Assembly (NCBI GenBank): GCA_020850415.1
Contig: JADZER010000037.1
Coordinates: 248,001-312,000, forward strand
Direction: 5' to 3'
Length of the DNA stretch: 64,000 nt
Origin: Phycisphaerales bacterium
GTDB lineage: Bacteria; Planctomycetota; Phycisphaerae; Phycisphaerales; UBA1924
Both the position numbers and the translations under genes were made by a program. The notes below the pieces were generated by a model. That model searched no databases, had not been told where the DNA came from, and saw nothing but the letters and a program-made list of their open reading frames with translations. Shown one piece after another: positions 45,455 to 60,869 of the stretch (its first letter is position 1; the number at the start of each line of letters is the position of its first letter).

Positions 45455-46951
45455 CTACTGCCCGTCGGCGCCGGGGGCGGGCGGGGCGTCTTCGGCCGGG
45501 GGCGGCGGGAGGCCCTCGGGCCCGTCGGCGCGGGTGTAGGTGGCGACCTTGTGGCAGCCCGGGGCGCACGAGCCGCCGGTGTCGGTGGGCTTGAAGTTGA
45601 TGGGGAGCATCCACTGGCCGTAGGGGGAGGTCTCGCGCACCATCGCCTTGTGGTTGCTGGCGTGGGTGTTGTGGCAGGCGCGGCAGGTGCGTCCCTGCTC
45701 GCCCTTGACATGGAGGGCGTGGAGGTTCCGCTCGCCGTCGCGGAAGCGCGTGGCCTCCCAGGTGTGGTCTTCGAGGAGGAGGTCCTGGTCGTGGCAGGAG
45801 AGGCAGAGCGCGTAGGCGTTCTCGCTGAATGCCTCGTAGAAGGCGCTGGTGTAGTTGGCGATGAGCAGGCGCGAGTGGTCGCTGCCGTGGACCTCGTGAC
45901 AGGCGGCGCACTGGCCGTCGATGACCGGGCCGTGCGCGATGGGCAGGTGCTGGGCGAGGTCGCTGGCGACCGGGACGGGGTGCGGCGAGGCGGGGGCCGC
46001 CGGTGTCGCGCCGGGGTTGCTGGCCAGCGGGGGCGGCGGGCTGGTCGGGTCGCGCAAGGGCTGGGCGGGATCGGCCGGGGTGGGATCCGCCTGGGCCGGA
46101 CCGCTATGGCAGGCCATGCACGCGGCGACGGGGTCATCGTACTGGAGGGCTTCTGAGGAGGAGGCGTGAGGGGTGTGGCAGTTGAGGCACGCGCGGTCGT
46201 CGAGCACGGCCGAGTGGGGGAAGGCGGCGTGCTGGGCGCGGGCGAGCTGCTCCTCGTGGCAGCCCGTGCAGAGGGCGACGGTGTCGTTCTTGATGAGGCC
46301 GGCGTGGTCCGAGCCGTGGGAGTCGTGGCACTCGAGGCAGTCGGCGCGGGCCGGCTCGTGGACGGTGAGTGCCGCGGCCATGTGCTCGCCGAGCTGCTCG
46401 TGGCACGAGAGGCAGAGGGAGCGACGCTCCTGGACGAGCAGGCCGGGGTGGTCGGCGGTGTGGGGGGCGTGGCAGGCGGTGCAGTCGCCGACCTTGGCGG
46501 GCTCGTGGAGCCACTGGCCGTGCATGGCCTCGGTGTGGCAGGAGAGGCAGAGCTCGCCGGTGGTGTCGAACTTGATCATCTGGCGCGAGGCCGAGCCGTG
46601 GGGGTCGTGGCAGGCGAGGCAGTCGCCGTCGGCGAGCGGCTGGTGGACGACCGGGCCCTCGGTGCCGGTCTTGTCGATGTGGCAGAAGTCGCACAGGTCG
46701 CGGCCCTGGCGCCGGAGCACGAAGGAGTGCTGGGCGACATCGACATCGTCGTGGCAGGTGCGGCAATCGGCGACGGCCGTGGGGCCGTGGAGGAAATCGT
46801 GCTGCATCGTGGCGGCGTGGCAGCCGTTGATGGTGCAGTTGGGCGTGCGGATATTGGGGCGGATGGTGGGGTCGAGGTCCTGGGCGAGGGCGCCCGTCGC
46901 GGCGCAGGAGACGGCGAGGGCCAGGAAGGGGGTGGCCCTGCGGCGGCTCAC
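45455..46951 (-). CDS. Multiheme c-type cytochrome with 13 CXXCH motifs
   Basis: A 498-residue secreted protein with a signal peptide (AVSCAATGALAQD). It has thirteen CXXCH heme sites, mostly in doubled CXXCH arrangements (CLSCHT...CTACHAPH, CLSCHEQ...CLECHDSHGSDH), plus two near-motifs: CTINGCH (CX4CH) at the start and CAPGCH (CX3CH) near the end. A Pro/Ala-rich linker separates two heme-rich halves. The family (doubled CXXCH, NapC/NrfB-like repeats) moves electrons in the periplasm or at the cell surface. GTG 46951 overlaps the upstream cytochrome stop, so the two are coupled. Confidence 0.88.
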   Translation of the reverse strand: MSRRRATPFLALAVSCAATGALAQDLDPTIRPNIRTPNCTINGCHAATMQHDFLHGPTAVADCRTCHDDVDVAQHSFVLRRQGRDLCDFCHIDKTGTEGPVVHQPLADGDCLACHDPHGSASRQMIKFDTTGELCLSCHTEAMHGQWLHEPAKVGDCTACHAPHTADHPGLLVQERRSLCLSCHEQLGEHMAAALTVHEPARADCLECHDSHGSDHAGLIKNDTVALCTGCHEEQLARAQHAAFPHSAVLDDRACLNCHTPHASSSEALQYDDPVAACMACHSGPAQADPTPADPAQPLRDPTSPPPPLASNPGATPAAPASPHPVPVASDLAQHLPIAHGPVIDGQCAACHEVHGSDHSRLLIANYTSAFYEAFSENAYALCLSCHDQDLLLEDHTWEATRFRDGERNLHALHVKGEQGRTCRACHNTHASNHKAMVRETSPYGQWMLPINFKPTDTGGSCAPGCHKVATYTRADGPEGLPPPPAEDAPPAPGADGQ

Positions 46952-48462
46952 GACCCACCCCCGAGGGCGGCCTTGGCGGCGGCGATCTTCTCGCGGGCCT
47001 GGCCGAGGAGCTGCTGCGTGTAGTCGGGGTTGTGCACGCCCCAGCTGCCGTCGAGCTCGACGAGCTGGATGAGCCCGCCGGCCTCGTCGAGGGCCTCGCG
47101 CCCCGGGCCGGGGGGGACCTGGCTGTCGAGGGCGTCGAACTCGGCCTTGGCCTTGTCGTAGAGCCCGCGGGTGGCGGTCTGCCACAGGGGGATCATGCGG
47201 TCGCCGAGGCCCGGGGCGTGGCAGGCGTCGCAGCCGCTGGCCGCGGCCCGTCGGACCATCGCGCCGCTGTGCGGGTTGCTGTCGACCGGGGTCTGGGAGA
47301 CATGGCACCCCGCGCAGTCGACATGGGCCATGAACATGGGGCTGACGGCGGTGGTGGCCTGCTCGGCGCCTGCGGCGAGGTATGACCGCTGCTGGATGTT
47401 GTGCTGGTCGATGTGGCAGCCCGTGCAGTCGAGGGCCTGGAGCCGCTCCTCCATGGCCTCGGGCCCGTGCCGGGGCTCGCCGTGGCAGCTGAAGCACTCG
47501 ATCTTGTGCTTGCCCTCCTGGTGGATGCGGTGGAGCTCCTCGGCGGGCTTGGCGTGGTCGACGCCGAAGGTGTGGCACGAGAGGCAGGCGGTGTCGTCGA
47601 TGGGGTTTGGGTTGGTGGTGACGCCGCGGTGGCAGGACTCGCAGCTGGCGCCCCAGTCGAGGAAGTCGGCGTGGTTGACCATGAGCCCGCGGTACTCGAA
47701 CTCCTCGGCGGGGGGCTCGTGGCAGGCCTGGCAGTTGGCGGGGGGGACGCCCTCGGCGGTGGTGGGGTGTCCCTCGGGGAACAGCTCGGGGTCGGCGTCG
47801 GCGCCGGGGGCCGCCTCATCGGGCTGGCGGACGGTCATGCGGATGAGCCGGATGCCGGGGCCGGCGTCCGCGGGCGGCTCGGTGTGCTGGGCCTGGAGGA
47901 CGGTGTCGTCGGCGCTCTCGATGAGGTGGCAGGTGATGCAGATGCCGGTGTTGACCTCGAAGTGGGTGCTGCCGCGGATGTGCGAGTGGCAGGTCGTGCA
48001 CTGCATCTTGATGCCGAAGTACTCGTGGTCGAGGTGCAGCTCGTGGCTGAACTTGAAGGAGTCGGTATCGGTATTGGTCTCGATGATGTGCTCTTTGGTG
48101 TGGCAGCCGGCGCGGGTGCAGGCCATCTCGCTGACCGAGGCGGAGGGCTTGGGGCTGGTGCGGTTGAGGATGTCGTCGACGACCTGTCCGGCGCCGTTGA
48201 GCTTGGCGGCGATGAAGTTGTCGACGCCGGGGTCGATGTGGCACTCGACGCAGTGGACCTCGGTGTGGGTGTCGTTCTTCCAGCTCGTGTAGAAGGGCTC
48301 CATGATGTGGCAGCTGTTGCAGAACCAGCTCTGGGAGCTGATCTCCACGGACACGACCATGAAGACGACGAACAGGACCGAGCCGATCGCCAGCCGCTTG
48401 ACGGTGAAGAGCTTCTTGCGGGGCTTGGGGGTGGCGGCGTCGGCTTGAGACTTCCGGCCCAT
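46948..48462 (-). CDS. NapC/NirT-like membrane-anchored multiheme cytochrome
   Basis: A 504-residue protein. The N-terminal anchor helix (about residues 22-42) is followed by a NapC/NirT/NrfH-type tetraheme section (CNSCH at 48, CVECH at 71, CTRAGCH at 115, CTTCH at 155). Further CXXCH motifs extend through residue 430, for eleven CXXCH plus one CX4CH in total. NapC-type proteins oxidise quinol and pass electrons to periplasmic reductases; the extra C-terminal hemes would extend the wire. It lies divergent from the regulator operon and is followed, with overlap, by a second multiheme cytochrome. A sigma-54-like promoter faces it at 48712-48727. Confidence 0.87.
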   Translation of the reverse strand: MGRKSQADAATPKPRKKLFTVKRLAIGSVLFVVFMVVSVEISSQSWFCNSCHIMEPFYTSWKNDTHTEVHCVECHIDPGVDNFIAAKLNGAGQVVDDILNRTSPKPSASVSEMACTRAGCHTKEHIIETNTDTDSFKFSHELHLDHEYFGIKMQCTTCHSHIRGSTHFEVNTGICITCHLIESADDTVLQAQHTEPPADAGPGIRLIRMTVRQPDEAAPGADADPELFPEGHPTTAEGVPPANCQACHEPPAEEFEYRGLMVNHADFLDWGASCESCHRGVTTNPNPIDDTACLSCHTFGVDHAKPAEELHRIHQEGKHKIECFSCHGEPRHGPEAMEERLQALDCTGCHIDQHNIQQRSYLAAGAEQATTAVSPMFMAHVDCAGCHVSQTPVDSNPHSGAMVRRAAASGCDACHAPGLGDRMIPLWQTATRGLYDKAKAEFDALDSQVPPGPGREALDEAGGLIQLVELDGSWGVHNPDYTQQLLGQAREKIAAAKAALGGGS

Positions 48463-48695
48463 GGGTCGGCCCTTCCTTCCCGGCGTGTCGCCGGCCGATG
48501 GGGGATCGCGGGGTCGGGTGATTATCCACCCAAGAGGTCAGGAATACCAGCGGCGGGTCTGCCACGCATGAGAGAGACCCATCCAGCTTCGCGCCGGGCT
48601 CCTGATTTCGAGAAAATCTCGCAGGCTTGATTTCCATTCTTGAGAAACAAGTGCTACAAGTCCTATTATAGTGCTTGCCTGGATTGCCGGCCCCG

Positions 48696-48712
48696 CGGCA
48701 CAGGCGTTGCAT
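48696..48712 (+). promoter_or_regulatory. Sigma-54 (RpoN) promoter candidate, plus strand
   Basis: CGGCACAGGCGTTGCAT has the invariant GG (48697-48698) and GC (48709-48710) separated by exactly ten bases, and a full TTGCA element at -12. It would start transcription near 48722, toward the gene at 48825. Confidence 0.6.
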
Positions 48713-48727
48713 CAAGTTGCGTGCCAG
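48711..48727 (-). promoter_or_regulatory. Sigma-54 promoter candidate, minus strand
   Basis: On the minus strand TGGCACGCAACTTGAT has a perfect TGGCACG -24 element and a -12 element TTGAT, where the usual GC is GA. It overlaps the plus-strand candidate and points to the cytochrome genes. Confidence 0.45.
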
Positions 48728-48824
48728 CAAGTGATTGAGACCGGCCCGATGACGGATTGGGCTCGAGCAAATCCACCCGGTGCCACCCCTGGGGTCCCGG
48801 CCAGACCGAACGAAGGAGTGATCC

Positions 48825-49436
48825 ATGTCCGCGACTCTGCTTTCCGCCCTGGCCGCCGCGAGTCTGAGCCTGGGCATGCACGCCGGCCTGAGCCCCGAGG
48901 TCTCGTCGTGGGACGCGTCCCAGCCGGCGGTGGAGCAGCCGGAGGGCCCGCAGCCGGCGGCGTCGTATGACCCCGCGGAGGATGTGAAGACGATCGACGG
49001 GGTGATGAAGGCGTTGTACGCGTGCACGGCGGGCCCCCCCGGGCAGGCGCGGGACTGGGACCGGCTGCGGAACCTCTGCCACCAGGACATGCGCTTCCTG
49101 GCGGTGCGCAGCGACGGCGCGGACGGGGCCGTGGTGTTCACGCTCACGGTCGAGGACTACATCATGCACAACAAGACCTACTTCGAGAAGGGCGGGTTCT
49201 TCGAGTCGGAGCTCGCGCGGCGGACGGAGAGCTTCGGGAACATCACGCATGTGTGGAGCACCTTCGAGTCGCGTCTGGGCTCGGCGGGGGCGGACCCGTA
49301 CACGCGCGGCATCTACAGCGTGCAGCTGCTCAAGGACGGCGGGCGGTGGTGGGTGCTCAGCTGCAGCTGGGACATGGAGCGCCCGGACAACCCGCTCCCC
49401 GAGAAGTATCTGGAAACCCCCGTCGGGGGCGAGTGA
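48825..49436 (+). CDS. Secreted NTF2/SnoaL-like protein
   Basis: A 203-residue protein with a signal peptide (residues 1-22) and a Pro/Gln-rich spacer. The domain pattern fits the NTF2-like/SnoaL cone: TIDGVMKALYACTAGPPGQARD, an FLAVRSDG strand, TYFEKGGFFESELARRTESFG, VWSTFESR and GGRWWVLSCSWD. Such domains bind small ligands or act as stress-related lumazine-like proteins. As first gene of the sigma-54-regulated series it might sense or bind a periplasmic compound, which is inference. GAAGGAG lies upstream. The NtrC gene follows after 15 bases. Confidence 0.78.
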   Translation: MSATLLSALAAASLSLGMHAGLSPEVSSWDASQPAVEQPEGPQPAASYDPAEDVKTIDGVMKALYACTAGPPGQARDWDRLRNLCHQDMRFLAVRSDGADGAVVFTLTVEDYIMHNKTYFEKGGFFESELARRTESFGNITHVWSTFESRLGSAGADPYTRGIYSVQLLKDGGRWWVLSCSWDMERPDNPLPEKYLETPVGGE

Positions 49437-49451
49437 TCGCCGGAGCATCGC

Positions 49452-50852
49452 GTGAGCAGCGAGGAGGCCAGGACGCACGCCGGGAAGTCGATCCTCATCG
49501 CGGAGGACGAGGCGCTGCTGCGCGAATCGCTCGCCGAGCTGCTGGGCGCGGAGGGCTACCGGGTCTCGCAGGCGGCGAACGGGCGTGAGGCGTTCGGGCT
49601 GGCGCTCGAGACGCCGTTCGATCTGGTGATCACCGACATCCGGATGCCCGAGATGGACGGGATGACGCTCCTGGGCAAGCTCCAGGAGCTCGCGCACCAG
49701 ACGCCGGTGATCGTGATCACGGCGTACGGGACGGTGGAGAGCGCCGTGCTGGCGATGCGTTCGGGCGCGGCCGATTACCTGCTCAAGCCGATGCAGTTCG
49801 ACGAGGTGCTGATGCGGGTGCGTCGGGCGATGGACTTCGGCGAGATCCGGCGCGACCGGCGCCGGATGACCGAGCAGCTCGCGGCGGGCAGCGCGTTCCA
49901 GAACCTGATCGGCGAGTCGCCGGCGATGCTGCGTCTGTTCGAGCTGGCCCGCAAGCTCTCGGCGGTGCGGTCGAGCGTGCTGATCGTCGGGGAGAGCGGG
50001 ACGGGCAAGGAGCTGTTCGCGCGGGCGATCCACTTCAACGGGCCGGGCCGGGACAAGCCGTTCGTCGCGGTCAACTGCGGGGCGATCCCCGACTCGCTGA
50101 TCGAGAGCGAGCTGTTCGGCCACAAGCGGGGGGCGTTCACGGGCGCGGTGGCGGACCGGATCGGCTATTTCGAGGCCGCGCACGGGGGAACGCTGTTCCT
50201 CGACGAGATGTCGACCCTGCCGCTGGCGGTGCAGAGCTCGCTGCTGCGCGTGCTGGAGGAGCGGGTGGTGACGCCGGTGGGGGACACGCGGGCCAAGCCG
50301 GTGGATGTGCGGATCGTGGCGGCGTCGAACCAGAACCTGGCCGATCTGGTCGGGCGAGGCGGGTTCCGCGAGGACCTGCTGTACCGGCTGGATGTCGTGC
50401 GCCTGGAGCTGCCCCCGCTGCGCGAGCGCCCGGAGGATATCCCGCGCCTCGCCTACCACTTCCTGGCGAAGTACACGCGGGAGATGAGCAAGCGCGTGAC
50501 GGGCATCAGCAACACGGCCATGCGGGCGCTGCTCGGGCACGAGTGGCGGGGCAATGTCCGCGAGCTGGAGAATGTGATCGAGCGGGCGGTGATCTTCGCC
50601 GAGGGGCGTGAGATCGAGCCCGAGGACCTGCCCTTCGTGCCCCGGGCCGGGCCGGTGGCCGAGGGCGAGGACCTCAAGGACGCCGTCCGCTCGTTCGAGC
50701 GCCAGCACATCCTCGCGAGCCTGAAGCGCCACGACTGGGACAAGAACGAGACGGCCCGGCAGCTCGGTATCGGGCTCTCGAGCCTGTACCGGAAGCTCGA
50801 CGAGCTCAAGATCCCGAAGGAAACACCCGAGCCGGAGACCACCGGGAGGTAA
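49452..50852 (+). CDS. NtrC-family sigma-54-dependent response regulator
   Basis: A 466-residue protein with three domains. The receiver has phosphoacceptor Asp62 in [13 protein letters not shown]. The AAA+ activator has Walker A GESGTGKE (180-187), the sigma-54 contact loop GAFTGA (227-232), FLDE (249-252) and an intact arginine-finger region. A C-terminal Fis-type helix-turn-helix spans about 420-452 ([21 protein letters not shown]). It activates RpoN promoters by ATP hydrolysis once phosphorylated. The two kinase-like genes follow directly, and sigma-54-like promoters lie on both sides of the divergent gap. Confidence 0.94.
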
Positions 50853-50941
50853 CGACGAACCAACAGCGCATCCGGGGTGGGGCGCCGCCGGCCCCAGGCG
50901 AAGACGGAACCGCCTGAGGCACCGGCCGCGGAGTCCCGAGC

Positions 50942-51985
50942 ATGCTGCGACGAAAGCTCCTTGCCAGGATCGGTCTCTTGATCAGCGCCTTTGTGTGCGG
51001 CGCGGTCGTTGCCGTGGTGCTGCTCCAGCGGGTGGTGCATGAGATCGACCGGGTGAACGAGGACACGGCCCGGCTGACCGACGGCGTCAACGAGCTGGCG
51101 GCGTCGATCACGGCGCTGGAGGCCCAGCGCCTCACCGGAAGCGCCGCGGTCGAGCCGACGGCCGAGCTGTTCGCGGCGTCGGCGGTGGACGGGGCGATGG
51201 ACAAGCTGGCGTCGCACCCGGTGACCCAGGGCCCGAACGGCGAGGCAGCGGAGGTGTTTATCCGCATTTCGTCCGTGCTGCCGGCGTTCACCCGGGGCCA
51301 GCACGCGGCGAGCGACGCGGAGGCGCTCGCCTCCTCGATCGCGCTGCGGGGGGAGGTGCGGACGCTCGGGCAGATCACCTCCCGCTACGCGGCGGCGGAG
51401 CGGGAGGCGCTGGGCCGGCACTTCCGCATGCTGGTGCTCGGCCTTACACTGGCGGCCATCGTGATGGTGAACGCCTCGGTCATCGTGCTGCTGCACACCG
51501 CGTACATGATCCTGCGTCCGGTGGACCAGCTGGTGGCGGCCAGCCGCGAGCTGGCCCTCGAGCGGTTCGATCACCGGGTGCAGATCGACCAGGAGGACGA
51601 GTTCGGTGAACTGGCGCACGCGTACAACCAGCTGGCCGAGCAGCTCGAGGCCAACGAGCAGCGGAAGATGGAGACGCTGCGCCAGGTCGCGGTCGCGTTG
51701 AACCACGACCTGAACAACACGCTGGCGGCGATCGAGCTGGAACTGCGGCTCGCGGACCTGCAGACGGGCGGCGACCCCAAGCTGGCCGAGCGGTTCACCC
51801 GGATGCACAAGAGCGTGGCCCGCGTCGCCAAGGCGGTGAGGTCGCTCGCGGAGGTGCGCCGGATCGTGCTGACCGAGTACATGCCGGGGCAGCTGATGCT
51901 CGATCTGGAGCGTTCGGTGAGCGACGGGGACGCGCCGGCGGCGACCGATGTCCCGTCGGCGGCGCAGGAGGCCCCGCACCCGTGA
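50942..51985 (+). CDS. Membrane HAMP-HisKA protein without ATPase domain
   Basis: A 347-residue protein. Helix 1 is at about residues 8-28, followed by a periplasmic helical domain of some 135 residues, helix 2 at about 163-188 and a HAMP domain (190-240). A dimerisation/phosphoacceptor-like helix follows, with His255 in VALNHDLNNTLAAIELELR. The sequence then ends without the N, G1, F or G2 boxes of a catalytic ATPase domain. It overlaps the next gene, a complete kinase, by four bases (GTGA). It may be phosphorylated in trans by that kinase or modulate it. Confidence 0.8.
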   Translation: MLRRKLLARIGLLISAFVCGAVVAVVLLQRVVHEIDRVNEDTARLTDGVNELAASITALEAQRLTGSAAVEPTAELFAASAVDGAMDKLASHPVTQGPNGEAAEVFIRISSVLPAFTRGQHAASDAEALASSIALRGEVRTLGQITSRYAAAEREALGRHFRMLVLGLTLAAIVMVNASVIVLLHTAYMILRPVDQLVAASRELALERFDHRVQIDQEDEFGELAHAYNQLAEQLEANEQRKMETLRQVAVALNHDLNNTLAAIELELRLADLQTGGDPKLAERFTRMHKSVARVAKAVRSLAEVRRIVLTEYMPGQLMLDLERSVSDGDAPAATDVPSAAQEAPHP

Positions 51986-53379
51986 GCGCCGGCCTCTCTC
52001 CACCGCCGGGCGCGTCATGCCCCCCCACGCGACGGCGGCCCGGGGAGGTCGCGCGGCTGTCGGTGCTCCGGACCGAGCTGCGCTGGCTCATGCGCCTGCG
52101 CTGGGGCGCGGGGGCGCTCTTTGTGCTGGGCTCGCCCCTGGGCCTGCTGCTTGCCGACGCGCCCGCGCCGCCGGTGTGGATCGGCGTCATCGGGCTGGTC
52201 ATCCTCGCCCACAACGGGCTGGCCACGATCATCGAGCGGTGGACGCCCGAGCTCCGCCAGCGGCTGGTGGCGCTGGAGCGGTTCGCGGGCCTGCAGGTGG
52301 CGGCGGACCTGGTGTGCCTGGCGGGGCTCATCGCGGTCACCGGCGGGCTGCTCAGCCCGGTCCTGGGGTTCGTCGTCTTTCACATGGTCTTCGCGGCGCT
52401 GCTGCTGGCGAGGGCGTGGGCGTACGGCGCGGCGGCGGCGGCGGTGGGGCTCCTCGCCTGCGGGCTGCTCGTGACGGGGCGGTGGCCCGCCGATCCGCCC
52501 GGGGCGATGCTGTTCGTGGGGTGGGCGGCGACGCTGGTGGGCACGGTCTTCGTGAGCGAGCGGATCGCCTCGACGCTGCACCGGCGGGAGCGGGCCCGGA
52601 TCCGCAAGAACCGGCGACTCCGCGAGCTGGCGACGATGCTGCGCACGCAGCAGGGGGCGATGGTCCAGCACGAGAAGATGGCCGCGATGGGGCGTCTGGC
52701 CGCGGGCGTGGCCCACGAGATCAACAACCCGCTGGCGAGCATGGACGGGGCGCTGCAGCTGATGGAGCGCAACCCCGAGGCGCCACCCCGCCCGTCGACG
52801 GTCCGCGCGCTGCGGGACCAGGTCCGCCGGATCCAGGAGACGGTGCGCGAGCTGACGGCGTTCGCGCACCCGGACCGGAGCCTGGGCGAGCCCGTGCCGC
52901 TGAACTCGGTGGTGAGCGGGGCGCTGCGGATGCTGGAGTTCGACCACCGGGTGCGCCGCTGCCGCGTCGAGACCGACCTTGGCGCGTCGTCGGGGCTTGG
53001 GTGTGTGGCGCCGCGGTCCTTGCAGCAGGTCATCATGAACCTGGTCCTCAACGCGCTGGACGCGGTCGCCGACCGGCTCGAGCCCGTGGTCGCCGTCCGG
53101 TCGAGCCGGCACGAAGGGCGGTGCATGATCGAGGTCGCCGACAACGGCGTGGGGATCCCCGCCGAGAAGCTCGCGGAGATCTTCGAGCCGTTCTACACCA
53201 CCAAGCCGGTGGGCTCGGGGACCGGGCTGGGGCTGTCGATCAGCCAGAGCCTGATCCGGGAGCTTGGGGGGGAGATCCGGGTGTCCAGCCAGCCGGGTGT
53301 CGGGACGACCTTCACGGTCGTGGTCCCGGCGCACGCGGGCCCCGAATCAGGTGCGGGGGCGGATAGCTGCGGGACCTGA
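51982..53379 (+). CDS. NtrB-like membrane histidine kinase
   Basis: A 465-residue protein. Five or six membrane helices (about 40-195) precede a short coiled coil and the HisKA domain with His245 in AAGVAHEINNPLASM. The complete HATPase domain follows: N box MNLVLNALDAV, G1 VADNGVGIP, F box FEPFYTTKPVGSG and G2 GTGLGLSIS. The HEINNP type is typical of NtrB-class kinases that pair with NtrC regulators, matching the gene two positions upstream. The signal is unknown; the multi-helix sensor could detect quinone state or a membrane signal. Confidence 0.92.
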   Translation: MSAGLSPPPGASCPPTRRRPGEVARLSVLRTELRWLMRLRWGAGALFVLGSPLGLLLADAPAPPVWIGVIGLVILAHNGLATIIERWTPELRQRLVALERFAGLQVAADLVCLAGLIAVTGGLLSPVLGFVVFHMVFAALLLARAWAYGAAAAAVGLLACGLLVTGRWPADPPGAMLFVGWAATLVGTVFVSERIASTLHRRERARIRKNRRLRELATMLRTQQGAMVQHEKMAAMGRLAAGVAHEINNPLASMDGALQLMERNPEAPPRPSTVRALRDQVRRIQETVRELTAFAHPDRSLGEPVPLNSVVSGALRMLEFDHRVRRCRVETDLGASSGLGCVAPRSLQQVIMNLVLNALDAVADRLEPVVAVRSSRHEGRCMIEVADNGVGIPAEKLAEIFEPFYTTKPVGSGTGLGLSISQSLIRELGGEIRVSSQPGVGTTFTVVVPAHAGPESGAGADSCGT

Positions 53380-53398
53380 CAAACCAGGGGTATGCACT

Positions 53399-53414
53399 TG
53401 GATGGATGCTCGCG
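53399..53414 (+). promoter_or_regulatory. Weak sigma-54-like element before the tetraheme gene
   Basis: TTGGATGGATGCTCGC has GG and GC ten bases apart but poor flanking consensus. A TATTCT -10 box at about 53450-53455 is an alternative promoter, with a leader of about 25 bases. Confidence 0.25.
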
Positions 53415-53484
53415 GGGCCCCGGCAGAGGAAAAGACAGCTAGATAGCGATATTCTCATCCGAATACCCTCAGGTGCGCCATTCC

Positions 53485-54192
53485 ATGACCAGGCACCACG
53501 AGCACCCCGATCCGGAACGCCCGGCCAGCCGGCCTGCCTGGCTTGTCGGGCCCGCGTTCGGCCTGCTGGCGGTCTGGTTCGTCTGGTTCGCGCCGGCGCC
53601 GCAGATCCCGGCGTCGGGCAGCGTGCAGATCGGTAAGGCGGCCCTTGGGCCGACAGCGCGGGCGACCGTCAAGGCTGACCCGCCGATCACGCGGGTCGGG
53701 GCGTACGAGTACCGGTGCAGCGACTGTCACCGGCTGTTCCAGAACGAGGCGGAGAAGACGGTCGGGCGTGTGCAGCACACCGAGATCGTGCTGGACCACG
53801 GGCTGAACGACCGGTGCCTGTACTGCCACAGCCAGGCGGACCGGGACCGGCTCGTCGCGCGGGACGGGGCCGGGCTCTCGTACGCGCAGATCCCCGAGCT
53901 CTGCGCGCGGTGCCACGGCACGACCTACCGCGACTGGCAGCGTGGGACGCACGGCAAGACGCTCGGCTCGTGGCGGAGCGCGAGCCCGGAGCGGCGGCGC
54001 CTGACCTGCTCGGAGTGTCACGACCCGCACGCGCCGGCGTTCGCGCCCGAGGCGCCGCTCCCGGGACCGCACACGGCGCGCATGGGTGAACCGCCCGCCG
54101 GCCATCGGCCCGAGGGTGGGGGCCCGCCGTCGGCGCCGTTCGTGGGCGCCGGGGGAGCGCGGGGATCGGGAGAGGGGGGGGCGGGCCGATGA
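53485..54192 (+). CDS. Tetraheme c-type cytochrome (NrfB-like position)
   Basis: A 235-residue protein with an N-terminal membrane or signal segment (about 20-40). Four CXXCH motifs follow (CSDCH, CLYCH, CARCH, CSECH), then a Pro/Gly-rich tail. It probably hands electrons from the NrfD-FeS module to the octaheme protein. GTG 53473 is an alternative start; ATG 53485 is preferred for its distance from the TATTCT box. It overlaps the Fe-S gene by four bases. Classical NrfB has five hemes, so this is an analogue in position rather than a proven orthologue. Confidence 0.82.
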   Translation: MTRHHEHPDPERPASRPAWLVGPAFGLLAVWFVWFAPAPQIPASGSVQIGKAALGPTARATVKADPPITRVGAYEYRCSDCHRLFQNEAEKTVGRVQHTEIVLDHGLNDRCLYCHSQADRDRLVARDGAGLSYAQIPELCARCHGTTYRDWQRGTHGKTLGSWRSASPERRRLTCSECHDPHAPAFAPEAPLPGPHTARMGEPPAGHRPEGGGPPSAPFVGAGGARGSGEGGAGR

Positions 54193-55217
54193 CGATCCGC
54201 ATCTGGGAGGGCAAGTCCGCCGGGGCGCCCGGCCCCTGTGGGGCGGAGCCGGGGTTCACGCGCCGGGGCTTCCTCCGCGGGGCGACCGGCGCGGTCGGGG
54301 GGATGGCGGCGCTGGCGGCGGCGCTGAGCCCGCTGCGGGACCTGCCCGACGACGCGTTCCCCTCGCTCGAGGAGTTCCTCCAGAAGCACTACAAGGAGAT
54401 GACCCCCGCCGAGCTCGCGGACGCGATGGAGCGCGTCCGGGCCGAGGTCGAGGGGCGGTACGGCGTGGTCCCGACGGTCAGGGACTACCCGCCGATCGAG
54501 GGCGTGCGGTTCGCGTTCGCGCTGAACCTCTCGCGGTGCATCGGCTGCCGCAAGTGCGTGCACGCGTGCGTGGAGGAGAACAACCTGAGCCGTTCGCCCG
54601 AGGTGCAGTACATCCGTGTGCTGGAGATGCCGCGGGGCACGATGGACCTCGCGCGGGGCGATCACCACTACGATCGGGCGGAGGTGCCGGACGGGGGCCA
54701 CTACTACCTGCCGGTGCAGTGCCACCAGTGCGCCAACCCGCCGTGCGTGAAGGTGTGCCCCGTCGGGGCGACCTGGCAGGAGTCCGACGGGATCGTGGTG
54801 ATCGACTACGACTGGTGCATCGGGTGCCGGTACTGCGAGGCGGCGTGCCCGTACTGGGCGCGTCGGTTCAACTTCGCGGAGCCGACGATCCCGGATGGCG
54901 GGCTGAACCCGGACATGGGGTATCTCTCGAACCGTCCGCGCCGGCGGGGCGTGGTGGAGAAGTGCCACTTCTGCCTGCACCGGACGCGCCGGGGGGAGAT
55001 GCCCGCGTGCCTGGAGGTCTGCCCGGTGGGGGCGCGGAAGTTCGGGGATGTCCTGGACCCCCAGAGCGAGGTCTCGCAGATCCTCAGGACCAAGCGGGTG
55101 CTCGTCCTCAAGGAGGAGGTCGGCACCCTCCCGCGGTTCTTCTACTACTTCGACGAGCGGTACCCGCGTGACGCGGGGTCGCCGGGCCCCGGCGAGGGCG
55201 GGGAGGCCGGCCCGTGA
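54189..55217 (+). CDS. Tat-exported four-cluster 4Fe-4S protein (NrfC/HmcB-like)
   Basis: A 342-residue protein. The twin-arginine signal FTRRGFLRGA (Arg25-Arg26) precedes a ferredoxin-like domain with four cysteine sets: CIGCRKCVHAC, CHQCANPPCVKVCP, CIGCRYCEAACP and CHFCLHRTRRGEMPACLEVCP. This matches the periplasmic electron-transfer subunits NrfC, HmcB, DsrO and PsrB that work with NrfD-type membrane proteins. It is coupled by four-base overlaps to the tetraheme gene before it and the NrfD gene after it. Confidence 0.92.
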   Translation: MTIRIWEGKSAGAPGPCGAEPGFTRRGFLRGATGAVGGMAALAAALSPLRDLPDDAFPSLEEFLQKHYKEMTPAELADAMERVRAEVEGRYGVVPTVRDYPPIEGVRFAFALNLSRCIGCRKCVHACVEENNLSRSPEVQYIRVLEMPRGTMDLARGDHHYDRAEVPDGGHYYLPVQCHQCANPPCVKVCPVGATWQESDGIVVIDYDWCIGCRYCEAACPYWARRFNFAEPTIPDGGLNPDMGYLSNRPRRRGVVEKCHFCLHRTRRGEMPACLEVCPVGARKFGDVLDPQSEVSQILRTKRVLVLKEEVGTLPRFFYYFDERYPRDAGSPGPGEGGEAGP

Positions 55218-56500
55218 GGGACTACCTGACCTTCCTGTCACGGTGCGTGGCCCTGAGCTTCGTGGGCGGGCGCGTCTACTACGCGTGGATGTTCCTGCTG
55301 ACCGTGCTCGCGCTGGTCGGGCTCAACGCCTACGCCAGGCAGCTCGCGCACGGGCTGGCGGTCACCGGCATGACCGACCAGGTCTCCTGGGGGCTCTACA
55401 TCGGCAACTTCATCTACCTCGACGGGCTGGCGGCGGCCGTGGTGCTGCTGGTCATCCCCGCGTACATCTACCGGAACCGGGCGCTGCGCGATGTCGTGAT
55501 CTTCGGCCAGCTGTTCGCGGTCGCCGCGGTGATCATGTGCATGCTGTTCGTCGCGGTGGATCTGGGCCGGCCCGACCGGTTCCTGCACCTGTTCGCCCGG
55601 CCCAACTTCCCGGACTCGATGCTGACCTGGGATGTGATCGCGCTGGGCGGCTACCTGCTGCTGAATATCCACCTGACCGGGTACCTGGTCTTCTGCCAGT
55701 ACCGGAAGCGCGAGCCCGACCTCCGCCGCTTCGTGATCCCGTTCGTCCTTGTCGTGATCGTGTGGGCGATCACGATCCAGGCGGTCGCGGCGTTCCTGCT
55801 GTCGGGCCTGGGCGGGCGCCCGTTCTGGAACTCGGCGGTGGTGGCGCCGCGGTTCCTGGCCTCGGCGTTCGCGGCGGGGCCGGCGTTCATGATCCTGACG
55901 CTCGAGTGCATCGCCAGGGGCACGGGCTATAGGGTGCCGCGCGAGGGGCTGATGACGCTCCGGGGCATCATGACCGTGGCGCTGGCGCTGCACATGTTCC
56001 TGCTGGGCAGCGAGCTGTTCACGGCGTTCTACACCGGCTCGGCGCACGCGGGCTCGGCGCGGTACCTGTTCCTGGGGCTGGACGGGCACACCGGGCTTGT
56101 CCCGTGGATCTGGACGGCGATCGCGCTGAATCTCTGCGCGCTGGGCGTCCTCTTCACGCCGGCGAGCCAGAACCTCGCGATGCTCTCCGGCGCGTGCGTG
56201 ATGCTGATCGTCGGGGTGTGGATCGAGAAGGGGATGGGTCTGATCGTGCCGGCGTTCGTCCCCACGCCGCTGGGGGAGATCGTGGAGTACGCCCCGACGC
56301 TCGACGAGGTGCTGGTGACCCTGGGCGTGTGGGGCCTGGGGCTGCTGCTCTACACGATTCTCGTCCGCGTCACGGTCCCGGTGCTGACCGGCCGGCTCAC
56401 GATCGACACGCCCGGGCGCGGCGCTCGCCGTGCCGCGGGGGCGCCCGCCCCGCGCCGGCCCGGGGCAAGCCAGTCCGCAGAAGAGGAGATCCGCCCATGA
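55214..56500 (+). CDS. NrfD/PsrC-family quinone-reactive membrane subunit
   Basis: A 428-residue protein with about ten membrane helices. The NrfD/DsrP/HmcC pattern includes SWGLYIGNFIYLDGLAAAVVLL, LFVAVDLGRPDRFLHLFARPNF and WIEKGMGLIVPAFVP. It exchanges electrons between the quinone pool and the Fe-S partner encoded just upstream. GTG start with a four-base overlap. The Arg/Pro/Ala-rich C-terminal tail (about 395-428) is unusual, and the octaheme gene starts inside its last codons. Confidence 0.92.
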   Translation: MRDYLTFLSRCVALSFVGGRVYYAWMFLLTVLALVGLNAYARQLAHGLAVTGMTDQVSWGLYIGNFIYLDGLAAAVVLLVIPAYIYRNRALRDVVIFGQLFAVAAVIMCMLFVAVDLGRPDRFLHLFARPNFPDSMLTWDVIALGGYLLLNIHLTGYLVFCQYRKREPDLRRFVIPFVLVVIVWAITIQAVAAFLLSGLGGRPFWNSAVVAPRFLASAFAAGPAFMILTLECIARGTGYRVPREGLMTLRGIMTVALALHMFLLGSELFTAFYTGSAHAGSARYLFLGLDGHTGLVPWIWTAIALNLCALGVLFTPASQNLAMLSGACVMLIVGVWIEKGMGLIVPAFVPTPLGEIVEYAPTLDEVLVTLGVWGLGLLLYTILVRVTVPVLTGRLTIDTPGRGARRAAGAPAPRRPGASQSAEEEIRP

Positions 56501-57924
56501 GTGCGACCGTGTTCGCGATAGCCGCCGCCGTGGCGCTGGGCCAGGTGTTCGGGCCCAAGCAGCTGAGCGTGGAGTCGGCCAAGTGCGCCGCCTGCCACCA
56601 GCAGGACAACGCGGGGCTGGTGCAGCAGTGGGGGGCTAGCCGGCACTTCGGCGCGAATATCGGGTGCTACGAGTGCCACGGGGCGGACCCTGCCGACGCC
56701 GACGCGTTCGAGCACTACGACCAGTCGATCTCCGTGCTGGTGACGCCGAAGGACTGCGGGCGGTGCCACGCGCAGGAGGCCGAGGAGTTCGCCGGGAGCC
56801 ATCACGCCGCGGGGGGCCGGATCCTGGGCTCGCTGGACAATGTCCTGGCGGATGTGGTGGAGGGGAACAGGGCGATGGAGACCCCCGGGCACCCCGAGGG
56901 CGTGGCCGCCAGCGCGGTCAACGGGTGCTGGCAGTGCCACGGCGTGGAGGTGCGGGTGATCGGCGATGGCGAACTCGACCCGGCGACCTACCCGAACTCG
57001 GGCATCGGGCGGATCAACCCCGACGGCTCGGAGGGGGCGTGCAACGCCTGCCACCTGCGCCACGAGTTCAGCGTCGCGCAGGCGCGCCACCCCGACACCT
57101 GCGGCAAGTGCCACCTGGGGCCCGACCACCCGCAGAAGGAGATCTACGAGGAGTCCAAGCACGGCATCGCGTTCTTCGGCCACCTTGACGAGATGAACCT
57201 CGGCAGCCCCAAGTGGGTCGTGGGCGAGGACTACTGGGCGGCGCCGACCTGCGCGACCTGCCATGTGTCGGCGACGCGGACCCAGCCCATCACGCACGAT
57301 ATCGGGATGCGGATCAGCTGGAACAACCGCCCCGAGGTGTCCACGCGCCCCGAGCTGGCGGACGCGAAGATGGGGCTGCCCGGGAAGAATGTCCCCTGGC
57401 AGGTGCGGCGCGGCAACATGCAGGATGTCTGCACCAACTGCCACGCCGAGCAGTGGGTCGAGAACTTCTACGAGCAGTACGACGCGCTGATCGAGCTGTA
57501 CAACGAGAAGTTCGCCAAGCCCTCGCAGGCGCTCTACGCCCTCAGCCTCCCGCTCAAGGAGGTCGCGGCCCCGTTCACCACGGAGGCCGACTGGTCGTAC
57601 TGGGAGCTGTGGCACCACGAGGGCCGGCGCGCCCGCCACGGCGCGGCGATGATGGCGCCGGACTACACGCACTGGCACGGCACCTACGATGTCGCCAAGA
57701 ACTTCTACATGCAATTCGTCCCGGCCCTCCGCGGGATGATCCGCGACGGTGAGAGCTCTGGAGACCCCGCACGGGTCGAGGCGGCCGCGGCCCTGCGGGC
57801 CAAGCTCGACGGGGTGCTCAGCTCCGACGACCACAAGTGGTTCCTCGGCAAGACCGACCCGGCGGAGTTGGAGCGCCGGCGCAAAGCCCAGGAGGAGTTC
57901 AAGGCCCGGTACGACGGCGACTGA
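56497..57924 (+). CDS. HAO-family octaheme c-type cytochrome
   Basis: A 475-residue secreted protein with a short signal (residues 1-16) and eight CXXCH motifs starting at residues 30, 57, 87, 144, 182, 202, 252 and 312. The stretches GACNACHLRHEFSVAQARHP, CGKCHLGPDHPQKEIYEESK and HHEGRRARHGAAMMAPDYTH (about 373-392) are typical of the hydroxylamine-oxidoreductase-like octaheme family. Members oxidise hydroxylamine or hydrazine, or reduce nitrite and hydroxylamine (epsilonproteobacterial type). The gene is fused in operon (ATGA overlap) to NrfD, which favours a reductase or a quinone-coupled role. Whether the Tyr cross-link of true HAO exists here cannot be decided from sequence alone. Confidence 0.88.
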   Translation: MSATVFAIAAAVALGQVFGPKQLSVESAKCAACHQQDNAGLVQQWGASRHFGANIGCYECHGADPADADAFEHYDQSISVLVTPKDCGRCHAQEAEEFAGSHHAAGGRILGSLDNVLADVVEGNRAMETPGHPEGVAASAVNGCWQCHGVEVRVIGDGELDPATYPNSGIGRINPDGSEGACNACHLRHEFSVAQARHPDTCGKCHLGPDHPQKEIYEESKHGIAFFGHLDEMNLGSPKWVVGEDYWAAPTCATCHVSATRTQPITHDIGMRISWNNRPEVSTRPELADAKMGLPGKNVPWQVRRGNMQDVCTNCHAEQWVENFYEQYDALIELYNEKFAKPSQALYALSLPLKEVAAPFTTEADWSYWELWHHEGRRARHGAAMMAPDYTHWHGTYDVAKNFYMQFVPALRGMIRDGESSGDPARVEAAAALRAKLDGVLSSDDHKWFLGKTDPAELERRRKAQEEFKARYDGD

Positions 57925-57991
57925 CGGGGCCCCGCGCCGCACCGTGTCATACCCTGTCATGCCGTGCCCGCGGCACCTTCTGCGCGCCCGT

Positions 57992-59065
57992 TCAGCCGGC
58001 CTCGATCAGCACGCCCTCGCCGGTCAGGCCCGGCCCGAAGCTCAGGGCGCCGATGAGGCCCGTCGTGCCGCGCCGGAGCAGCGCGTCGAGCACCCACAGC
58101 ACGGTGCCCGAGGACATGTTCCCGTGCCGGTCGAGGACGCCGCGCGAGGCGTCCAGCGACTGGTCGGGCAGCCCCAGCCCGCGCTCGACCGCGGTCAGGA
58201 TGTCCCGCCCGCCGGGGTGGACGGCCCAGGCGGCGACATCGGCGCGGGAGAGGCCGAGGGCGCCGAGCCACTGGTCGGTCCAGGGGCCGACCGCCCGACG
58301 CAGCACGCCGGGCACCCGGGGGGAGAGGCGCATCTCGAAGCCGTGCTCGCCGATCGTCCAGGACATCAGGTCGCGCGTGCCGGGGAACACGCGGCTGCCG
58401 AACGCCCGGAGGCGCGGGGCGTCCGGGCGGCCGCCGGCGCCGCCGACGACCGCGCACGCGGCACCGTCGGCGAAGATGGCGTTGGCGACCTGCTGGTCCC
58501 ACGGCGCCTGGGCCTGAAAGTGCAGGCTGCAGACCTCGACGCAGACGACCATGGCCAGGGCGCCGGCGTGCGCCCGCACAAAGGCGTCGGCGAGCGCGAG
58601 CCCGTTGATGGCCCCGTGACAGCCCATGAAGCCGACATGGGTGCGCGAGATCTCCGGGCGAAGGCCGAGCAGGTCGATCAGCGCGTGGTCCAGGCCGGGA
58701 GATTCGGCGCCGGTGCAGGAAACGGTGATCAGGTGCGTGACCGCCTCGGCCGGGCGCGCCGCCGTCGCCAGCGCCGCCCTGCTCGCGTCCCCGGCCAGCG
58801 CCCCGGCGTGCCGGCGGTACCGGGCCAGACGGGCGGCGGTGGTCGGACCCCGCGGGGGGTCGGTGTGGAGCAGGTCGGCGCTCTCGCCCCCTTCGCCGAG
58901 GATGCTGCCCCGCTCGGAGACGCCGGCGTTCGCGTAGAGCTCGGCGAGGCGTTCCTGATCGGCGTGGGGGGAGATCTGTGCCGCGAGGCGCAGGCCGGCG
59001 GCGCGCGACAGGCGCGTCGCCGGCGAGGCGACCCCGATCGCGAGCAGGCGCGGGTCGGGGCTCAC
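57992..59065 (-). CDS. Type III polyketide synthase (chalcone-synthase-like)
   Basis: A 357-residue enzyme with the full catalytic triad: Cys149 (HVGFMGCHGAING), His283 (AWAVHPGGRDIL) and Asn316 (DRHGNMSSGTVLWVL). It extends an acyl starter with malonyl-CoA to give alkylresorcinols or pyrones. GTG 59065 overlaps the stop of the flavin hydroxylase gene. The set PKS, hydroxylase and methyltransferase equals the planctomycetal alkylresorcinol cluster and the Streptomyces srsABC operon. The starter is probably a long-chain acyl group, inferred from context. Confidence 0.9.
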   Translation of the reverse strand: MSPDPRLLAIGVASPATRLSRAAGLRLAAQISPHADQERLAELYANAGVSERGSILGEGGESADLLHTDPPRGPTTAARLARYRRHAGALAGDASRAALATAARPAEAVTHLITVSCTGAESPGLDHALIDLLGLRPEISRTHVGFMGCHGAINGLALADAFVRAHAGALAMVVCVEVCSLHFQAQAPWDQQVANAIFADGAACAVVGGAGGRPDAPRLRAFGSRVFPGTRDLMSWTIGEHGFEMRLSPRVPGVLRRAVGPWTDQWLGALGLSRADVAAWAVHPGGRDILTAVERGLGLPDQSLDASRGVLDRHGNMSSGTVLWVLDALLRRGTTGLIGALSFGPGLTGEGVLIEAG

Positions 59066-60180
59066 GCGCGGCCCCAGCACAGCCCCCGGCTGGCCCAGCC
59101 GGGCACCGCGCCCAGCGCGCCCAGCCGGAGCACGGCGTCCAGCACGCGGGGTCGTGCGGCGGCGGCGCAGACGGCGCGGCAGACGACCCGGCGCACGCCC
59201 AGCGTCCGCGAGCACTCACGCCCCCACGCCCCCGCCGCGTCGGCGCCCCGGACGATCGCCTCGGCGTAGGGCCCGATGCGGGCGGCGCACGCGATCGCCC
59301 AGCTCATCCCCTCGCCGGTCAGCGGCTGCACATACCCCGAGGCGTCGCCGACGAGAAGCACCCGCCCGCGCGACGCGGCGCGGCGCCGGGTCAGGTTGCC
59401 CACGCCGCGAAATCGCACGGCGCCCGCCGCGACCGGGCCCAGCCCGGACTCCGCCAGCAGGCTGTCGATCGCGCCGGCAGGCCCGTCCCGGCGCACGAGC
59501 CACGGCGTAACGGCGGCGGCGAGGGCCCAGCGTCCGCCGGGCAGCGGCGCAGCGCCGACATACCCGCCGCGCCCGCAGACCATGGTGATCGCGTCGGGCC
59601 CGGCGTGCGCCGGGGGGGCGTCGAGCGTCGCGCCAAGGCCGACTGGGCTGTCCTCCTTCACCGTCCATCGGAACTCGGGGCGCCCGGAGAGGGCGGCGCC
59701 CCCGAGACCGTCGGCGACGACGATGGCGCCGGGGCGCAGCGAGATCCGCTCGTCGCCGGCCCGCAGCTCGACCGTCTCAAGGTCGAGGAGCTTGGCCCCG
59801 ACGCCGTCGAGGAACCGCACGCCGCGCTCGACGCAGGATTGCGCGAGGGCCGCGTCGAACCTGGCCCTCTCAACGGTGACATAGGGCCTGATGGGCAGCG
59901 AGAGGGACGAGCCCCGGGCGATCAGGCGGAGCGTGGCGACCGGGGCCGCGCCGGCGAGCCGGAGCGCGCCGCCGAGCCCCGCGTCGTCGAGGGCGGCGAC
60001 GCCGGCGGGCGCGAGGCACCCGCCGCACACCTTCGGACGCGGGAAGGCCGCGCGATCGACCAACAGCGTCCGCAGGCCCCGCGCGGCGATCGACGCGGCG
60101 GCGACGCAACCGGCAGGCCCCGCGCCCACGACCAGCGCGTCCCAACCGCCCGGCTCGATGCTGCTCAGGGCCGATGCCAC
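59062..60180 (-). CDS. FAD-dependent oxidoreductase (geranylgeranyl-reductase/hydroxylase group)
   Basis: A 372-residue flavoprotein. The N-terminal dinucleotide motif VVGAGPAGCVAA is followed by a CGGCLAP stretch, a middle DxxxxxxGxx-type region and the flavin-contact segment LLVGDASGYVQPLTGEGMSWA. This subgroup includes geranylgeranyl reductases and SrsC-like phenolic-lipid hydroxylases. Sitting between a type III PKS and a methyltransferase, it probably hydroxylates the resorcinol ring. GTG 60180 lies inside the end of the methyltransferase gene. Confidence 0.87.
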   Translation of the reverse strand: MASALSSIEPGGWDALVVGAGPAGCVAAASIAARGLRTLLVDRAAFPRPKVCGGCLAPAGVAALDDAGLGGALRLAGAAPVATLRLIARGSSLSLPIRPYVTVERARFDAALAQSCVERGVRFLDGVGAKLLDLETVELRAGDERISLRPGAIVVADGLGGAALSGRPEFRWTVKEDSPVGLGATLDAPPAHAGPDAITMVCGRGGYVGAAPLPGGRWALAAAVTPWLVRRDGPAGAIDSLLAESGLGPVAAGAVRFRGVGNLTRRRAASRGRVLLVGDASGYVQPLTGEGMSWAIACAARIGPYAEAIVRGADAAGAWGRECSRTLGVRRVVCRAVCAAAARPRVLDAVLRLGALGAVPGWASRGLCWGRA

Positions 60181-60854
60181 GCGAGGAGCATACGCCACGG
60201 CCAGCGCCGCCGGACCGTCGCGCCGTGCAGGCCGGCCCGCTCGGCCAGGGCGAGGGCCTCGCGCGGGGTGTACGCGCCGCGCACGGACTTCACCGCGTCG
60301 GCGTGCACCACGCCCGAGCCGGTGATCAGCCGCGACACCGACCACGCCGCCGCGAGGCCGGCGCCGCAGCGCCGCAGATCGTTTACGAGCAGCAGGCGGT
60401 CCGCGCCGGCTGCGGCGTTGCGCAGAAAGAGCACCGCGTCGTCCTCATTGAGGTGATGCAGGAACAGGCTGCACACGACGATGTCGAACCTGCGCGGGAA
60501 GGGGTCGCGCAGCGCGTCCTGACGCCAGATCTCGAGCTCGACCCCCGCGCGGGCGGCGTGGGCGCGCGCGTGCCCCACGGCCGTGTCGCTCGCGTCGCAC
60601 GCGTGGAGGGCCAGCCTCACGCCGGCCCGCTCGGCACGCCGGGCGATCGCCAGCGGGACATCGCCGGCGCCGGTGGCGATATCCAGCACACTCAAGGGGC
60701 CGGCCCGAGCGGCCTCGGCGCGGATCGGGCCCCAGAGGATGCGGGGGCTGTCCGAGAGCCGGTTGATCCGGGAAAGCGCGCGGAGTGCCCGCGCGTGCTC
60801 GACGGGGTCGATCGCCGGGTCGTCCATCAGCTCGGGCGTGAGGGTGCGGCGCAT
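60165..60854 (-). CDS. Class I SAM-dependent methyltransferase
   Basis: A 229-residue protein with SAM motif I LSVLDIATGAGDVPLAIA, motif II near HACDASDTAVGHARAHA and motif IV FDIVVCSLFLHHL. It resembles the UbiE/SrsB-like enzymes of phenolic-lipid clusters and would methylate the polyketide product. ATG 60854 is used; a GTG three codons earlier is possible. A TAGCCT -10 box (60875-60870) lies just upstream. It is the first gene of the three-gene cluster, overlapping the next by 16 bases. Confidence 0.85.
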   Translation of the reverse strand: MRRTLTPELMDDPAIDPVEHARALRALSRINRLSDSPRILWGPIRAEAARAGPLSVLDIATGAGDVPLAIARRAERAGVRLALHACDASDTAVGHARAHAARAGVELEIWRQDALRDPFPRRFDIVVCSLFLHHLNEDDAVLFLRNAAAGADRLLLVNDLRRCGAGLAAAWSVSRLITGSGVVHADAVKSVRGAYTPREALALAERAGLHGATVRRRWPWRMLLAWHRP

Positions 60855-60869
60855 CGGGCCCACGCGAGG

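Follow-up and report, generated by a model that had tools for sequence, protein, structure and literature searches.

This locus raises the question of what a cytochrome with the fold of hydroxylamine oxidoreductase (HAO) does when its gene ends an operon encoding a quinone-linked membrane module. The window, that is the whole stretch of 64,000 nucleotides analysed from a Phycisphaerales bacterium (contig JADZER010000037.1), carries at 53485-57924 four open reading frames (ORFs), called on the plus strand and joined by three overlaps of 4 nt, as an earlier note on this DNA had described:

53485..54192, plus strand: tetraheme cytochrome c with an N-terminal hydrophobic stretch (235 aa; four CXXCH; ATG start)
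54189..55217, plus strand: twin-arginine translocation (Tat)-type ferredoxin-like protein with four [4Fe-4S] motifs, DsrO-like (342 aa)
55214..56500, plus strand: NrfD-family integral membrane subunit, DsrP-type (428 aa), with a quinol site predicted from the family
56497..57924, plus strand: octaheme cytochrome c with HAO fold, predicted catalytic subunit (475 aa)

The combination of a quinol module of DsrOP type with a putatively reductive HAO-fold octaheme cytochrome is conserved and was not found described; it appears to be a variant of the NrfD-linked multiheme reductases, nitrite being the most likely substrate. We propose, with modest confidence, a quinol-oxidising membrane complex that feeds a reductive HAO-fold octaheme cytochrome and probably reduces nitrite; hydroxylamine or nitric oxide (NO) would be the alternative substrates of the predicted quinol-dependent reductase.

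The tetraheme protein has four CXXCH motifs and a single N-terminal hydrophobic stretch (residues 18-36), its ATG at 53485 being preceded by an in-frame GTG at 53473. The Fe-S protein contains 16 Cys arranged as four groups of four, one further N-terminal Cys and the twin-arginine stretch TRRGFLRG; these motifs bear out the tetraheme cytochrome and the Tat-exported four-cluster protein that had been proposed. Among the four proteins, Pfam matches exceeding the cut-offs are to NrfD (130 bits), to Multi-haem_cyto PF13447 (84.5 bits) and to a number of Fer4 families; the tetraheme protein matches general cytochrome families only. When 35 tetraheme sequences were aligned, the four CXXCH and four further His proved invariant, the latter being what bis-His ligation would need.

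These genes had been read as an nrfBCD-like module: the gene order and the NrfD-family membrane subunit stand, whereas the pair scores as DsrO/DsrP and not as NrfC/NrfD. The membrane subunit exceeds the NCBIfam cut-off of DsrP (376.3 bits against 350), and so do those of six out of six relatives (seven of seven with the window's); the Fe-S protein has DsrO as its best model, at 179 bits and under the cut-off of 200, and the same best but sub-cut-off match was obtained for the Fe-S proteins of four out of four relatives (five of five with the window's). With the NrfC model the score is 117.8 bits, short of the 377.6 required. With DsrP above its cut-off, DsrO as the best match and NrfC far below, the module is thus DsrOP-like rather than NrfCD-like. 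Its likeness to DsrMKJOP concerns subunits O and P; it differs in that the DsrO-like protein stays under the cut-off and in that the operon carries a four-heme cytochrome, where DsrJ has three hemes, and ends in the octaheme protein. The 13 proteins scanned in the part of the window from 45458 to 60863 include no DsrM, DsrK or DsrJ.

The octaheme protein contains eight CXXCH motifs and its predicted model has a HAO-like fold; the motif scan of the sequence revealed no CXXCK and no C-X11-17-CH, Cytochrom_C552 gave no match at E 0.001, and the HDH model reached 58.7 bits against a cut-off of 900. Three features bear on the active site:

56926..56940, plus strand: CWQCH (residues 144-148), the fourth of the heme motifs, whose position predicts the active-site heme
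57124..57129, plus strand: Asp210-His211, aligned with HAO Asp267-His268
57649..57675, plus strand: Met385 to Trp393, aligned with the region of the HAO cross-link tyrosine; Met and Trp are eight apart, with no Tyr at the equivalent position

In the P460 tyrosine environment, which the earlier note had singled out for checking, the cross-link tyrosine (presumably Tyr467 of the N. europaea enzyme) is missing, and the Asp-His pair, which we take to be catalytic in HAO, is retained. The equivalent of the tyrosine is His392 or Trp393, the alignment being ambiguous by one residue; Met385 and Trp393 are invariant in a 28-row alignment, and Tyr390 becomes Trp or Phe in some relatives. The octaheme cytochrome of PDB 4qo5, labelled a hypothetical multiheme protein and presumably from Ignicoccus hospitalis, is a fold match at 32% identity in which Trp and Phe occupy the positions of Tyr390 and Trp393, respectively. 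Heme 4 is the active site in octaheme enzymes (PMC12285233; here and below, cited papers are represented by the portions of their text that were available). The Trp at the tyrosine position and the Met eight residues before it, described as a signature of epsilon-Hao (PMC8940962), are both found in the octaheme protein, a likeness drawn from that description.

Two quick trees, with support given by the Shimodaira-Hasegawa-like approximate likelihood ratio test (SH-aLRT) alone and no verified epsilon-Hao among the rows, placed the protein further. The first comprised 130 rows, including 17 anammox HAO/HDH/HAOr-type rows; the second comprised 112, namely 77 family rows and 35 HAO/HDH/HAOr-type rows (15 anammox, 10 taken as aerobic-oxidiser HAO on the basis of PF13447 scores near 500 bits and the cross-link tyrosine, and 10 other gammaproteobacterial HAO-like). 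Both exhibited the window protein in a family separate from the HAO-type rows, and in the second tree this family was split from the 35 with 100% SH-aLRT; its sister is the protein of locus L102 (99%), within an eight-row Phycisphaerales clade (98-99%; loci and genomes are designated by L and G numbers). The octaheme protein has the HAO fold, yet it lies outside the HAO/HDH branch; hence, in the earlier assignment to the HAO family, the fold holds, whereas a branching with HAO, HDH or anammox reductive HAO is contradicted by both trees. Epsilon-Hao of Campylobacterota and anammox HAOr (6h5l, Kustc0457/Kustc0458) are similar in being reductive HAO-family octahemes without the tyrosine cross-link; HAOr-like rows, however, are on the other side of the tree.

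An octaheme relative (E 0.001 or better) occurs in at least 140 of 392 sampled planctomycete genomes. The search for NrfD genes next to HAO-type genes, as the earlier note had suggested, covered 120 neighbourhoods: 40 loci from the planctomycete listing and the best 80 of at least 559 loci from a scan of the genome collection. The full four-gene set was present in 51 (49 of 117 after removal of three duplicate pairs), so that the arrangement is more than chance; nine of the others had some module genes, 42 had none, and 18 had none but extended less than 3.6 kb on one side. In all full loci but one (50 of 51), module and octaheme genes share one strand with gaps below 1 kb, and in 44 the order is tetraheme - Fe-S - NrfD - octaheme; the octaheme gene comes first in L135, L146, L148 and L156, is divergent in L149, and the order is ambiguous in two loci with overlapping long ORFs. 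Absence of this order from related genomes, which had been named as an argument against a conserved system, is therefore not what was found. Carriers of the full module are labelled Planctomycetota, Verrucomicrobiota, Desulfobacteraceae, Bdellovibrionales, Acidobacteria, Cloacimonadota and 'Deltaproteobacteria', spanning at least six phyla by genome labels, which may be wrong for metagenome-assembled genomes. In the window's own family, the distribution of the octaheme gene is uneven: among the members listed, it is present in the same genome and in G384 and missing from eight others. The neighbourhoods of octaheme relatives read from Aliagarivorans taiwanensis (L178) and Photobacterium chitinilyticum (L172) contain no module.

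The anammox-lineage loci L071, L129 (Candidatus Scalindua) and L032 contain the whole module, apart from HAO/HDH paralogues; since the genome of L071 (G374) also has a hydrazine-dehydrogenase-type gene (L095), an anammox bacterium carries the module. In two anammox-type genomes (L083, L096), a HAO-family octaheme protein of about 850 aa apparently begins, as judged by eye, with a fused multicopper-oxidase-like domain. Of the 59 loci with a full or partial module, 27 also encode a protein about 157 aa long (e.g. L108:8468-8938), in 21 of them immediately after the octaheme gene; the one member scanned had no Pfam or NCBIfam match.

A napA-type gene is found near 30 of the 120 octaheme loci and near 15 of the 51 with the full module; four such genes were scored, two passing a NapA cut-off (L063, L042) and two having NapA as best match below it (L052, L053). 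A NapA-family match lies within 5.3 kb of the octaheme match in at least 23 genomes, whereas a crude upper bound puts the number expected by chance at 2.2, and a few loci also carry NapB- and NapH-like genes. Epsilon-Hao converts nitrite to ammonium in vitro (PMC9213671), and the authors of PMC11266412 proposed a test of their guess that octaheme proteins of Phycisphaerae are Onr; the CXXCK active-site heme of octaheme nitrite reductase (ONR; PMC12285233) is, however, not present in the window protein.

The electron path that we infer would begin at the DsrP-type subunit, expected from its family to oxidise quinol. The Fe-S protein would accept the electrons, as its NrfCD and PsrBC analogues suggest; the tetraheme cytochrome, given its operon position, may relay them, and the octaheme protein would reduce nitrite at heme 4 beside Asp210-His211, with ammonium, or else hydroxylamine or NO, as the product. 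More tentatively, at less than an even chance, this may be a widespread class of energy-conserving nitrite-respiration complexes, not found described, in which a DsrOP-type quinol module serves a HAO-fold octaheme nitrite reductase in Planctomycetota (anammox bacteria included), Verrucomicrobiota and other phyla, with a periplasmic nitrate reductase as partner in many and possibly with ion translocation; we know of no ion translocation by NrfHA. Some observations weigh against the reading as a quinol-dependent nitrite (or hydroxylamine or NO) reductase: half of the neighbourhoods are without the module, and in the window's own genome NarG found no match and the NapA family a marginal one only. 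It also encodes, on another contig, NrfH and NrfA (L187:6436-8570), the latter with five heme motifs, all CXXCH and none CXXCK; thus the replacement of NrfA by the octaheme protein, as once suggested, is not borne out in this genome, where the octaheme complex adds to NrfHA.

Similarly to NrfABCD of the E. coli type, the operon has the order cytochrome - Fe-S - membrane subunit and would connect quinol to a periplasmic multiheme nitrite reductase; it differs in having a tetraheme carrier in place of pentaheme NrfB, the octaheme HAO-fold protein in place of NrfA and a sub-cut-off NrfC score. Planctomycetota from the Oslofjord have NrfD-type clusters in which a multiheme cytochrome, a 4Fe-4S protein and NrfD stand beside nar/nap genes, and their authors guessed a nitrite reductase; those clusters, however, include genes for a cytochrome that mostly has five hemes, for a partner of molybdopterin type and for ActD, as well as cco-like genes, and the available text describes no octaheme HAO-type subunit (PMC10732223). 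A cluster of NrfH, NrfD, NrfC and a triheme protein without NrfA is also on record, another multiheme protein being guessed as catalytic (PMC4911364). In the accessible portions of the open-access full-text literature searched, no description was found of an NrfD/DsrP module with a HAO-type octaheme protein, nor of epsilon-Hao or HAOr with an NrfD module.

Upstream of the operon, the locus comprises a divergent pair of cytochrome genes and a set of regulators:

45455..46951, minus strand: cytochrome of 498 aa with 13 CXXCH (doubled CXXCH repeats); homologue in the divergent operon of L191
46948..48462, minus strand: NapC/NrfH-type multiheme cytochrome of 504 aa, 11 CXXCH and one CX4CH, divergent operon
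48696..48711, plus strand: sigma-54-like -24/-12 site with one mismatch, a consensus match only, which would drive the plus-strand operon
48711..48726, minus strand: sigma-54-like -24/-12 site with one mismatch, a consensus match only, which would drive the divergent cytochrome operon
48825..49436, plus strand: conserved hypothetical protein (203 aa) with a homologue in L191 but none among the Pfam/NCBIfam families at E 0.001
49452..50852, plus strand: NtrC-type sigma-54-dependent response regulator, conserved in L102 and L191
50942..51985, plus strand: HAMP-domain protein
51982..53379, plus strand: sensor histidine kinase, weak sub-cut-off match to the PilS membrane region

The two cytochrome genes overlap by 4 nt; the 13-heme protein shows weak MtrC-like matches, and the N-terminal part of the NapC-type protein has a homologue in L191. 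In the closest relative, one contig carries the same set: the NapC-type gene (truncated at the contig end), the 13-heme gene, the gap, and then the genes for the hypothetical protein, regulator, HAMP protein, kinase, tetraheme, Fe-S, NrfD and octaheme proteins; this matching locus, together with L115 and L123, where a 13-heme homologue immediately precedes the tetraheme gene, links the divergent cytochromes with the module. The statement that the module dispenses with a NapC-type donor was therefore too strong, as such a gene is divergent in the locus and has a homologue on the module's contig in the nearest relative. Epsilon-Hao is paired with the NapC-type HaoC, whereas here the NapC-type gene is not adjacent to the octaheme gene. 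The two sigma-54-like sites are back to back in the divergent gap (48463-48824), and two sites occurred in none of 2000 Markov shuffles of this gap; through them the NtrC-type regulator may control the operon together with the NapC-type/13-heme pair. In another locus, a protoglobin-PAS sensor kinase, a candidate gas sensor, adjoins the module (L065:13608-15332); it was not found in the other loci, and a link of the module to globin-type sensors was rejected. On the other side of the operon, the minus strand (57995-60863) carries in a row genes for a type III polyketide synthase (chalcone/stilbene synthase family), a FAD-binding oxidoreductase and a methyltransferase.

The complex might instead reduce a sulfur oxyanion (sulfite, tetrathionate or similar), which we consider improbable. 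The octaheme protein of MccACD, the octaheme sulfite reductase, has one long-spacer heme motif, which is missing here, all eight window motifs being CXXCH. MccACD is nonetheless the nearest described analogue and has the same subunit plan, an octaheme catalytic cytochrome with a four-cluster Fe-S protein and an NrfD-like quinol subunit; beyond it, the available text of the NrfD-family review mentions neither octaheme proteins nor hydroxylamine (PMC8076601). The DsrO/DsrP-type membrane pair is of a type known from sulfate reducers, and sulfur reduction was proposed for a HAO-family clade, the HAO-family proteins of Tharpellota (PMC9213671). Defence against nitrosative stress has an equally small likelihood: with the sensor kinase and sigma-54 regulator in control, the octaheme protein would remove nitrite, hydroxylamine or NO but would not sustain growth. 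The dedicated sigma-54 regulator set, the lack of a NarG match or a convincing NapA and the presence of NrfHA for ammonification agree with this role; however, a multi-subunit quinol-linked module is in our judgement costly for detoxification, and the napA-type genes beside the module in many relatives point to respiration. Least probable is that the octaheme protein oxidises hydroxylamine (or NO or hydrazine) and the module returns the electrons to quinone, the oxidase alternative of the earlier note: despite the HAO fold with its Asp-His pair, and a native octaheme cytochrome of orange Beggiatoaceae that oxidised hydroxylamine and hydrazine and also reduced nitrite (PMC6449678; family membership not verified), it is disfavoured because the cross-link tyrosine, whose absence is tied to reductive catalysis (PMC8940962, PMC12758564), is missing and because the protein stands apart from the oxidative HAO/HDH rows.

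Quinol-linked nitrite reduction would also change how the relatives are read. They are very numerous, at least 7,999 among 8,000 scored candidates at E 0.001 or better, and 19 of the 31 source-named ones among 120 listed go by the name of hydroxylamine dehydrogenase or oxidoreductase, which hints at nitrification. Should these relatives be quinol-linked nitrite reductases, the occurrence of nitrite ammonification or NO formation in Planctomycetota, Verrucomicrobiota and other uncultured lineages would be underestimated. Phycisphaerae, reported without nirK and nirS in the available text of PMC11266412, would then gain a candidate enzyme together with its donor, anammox bacteria would gain a quinol-linked reductase, and the NrfD family a further catalytic partner.

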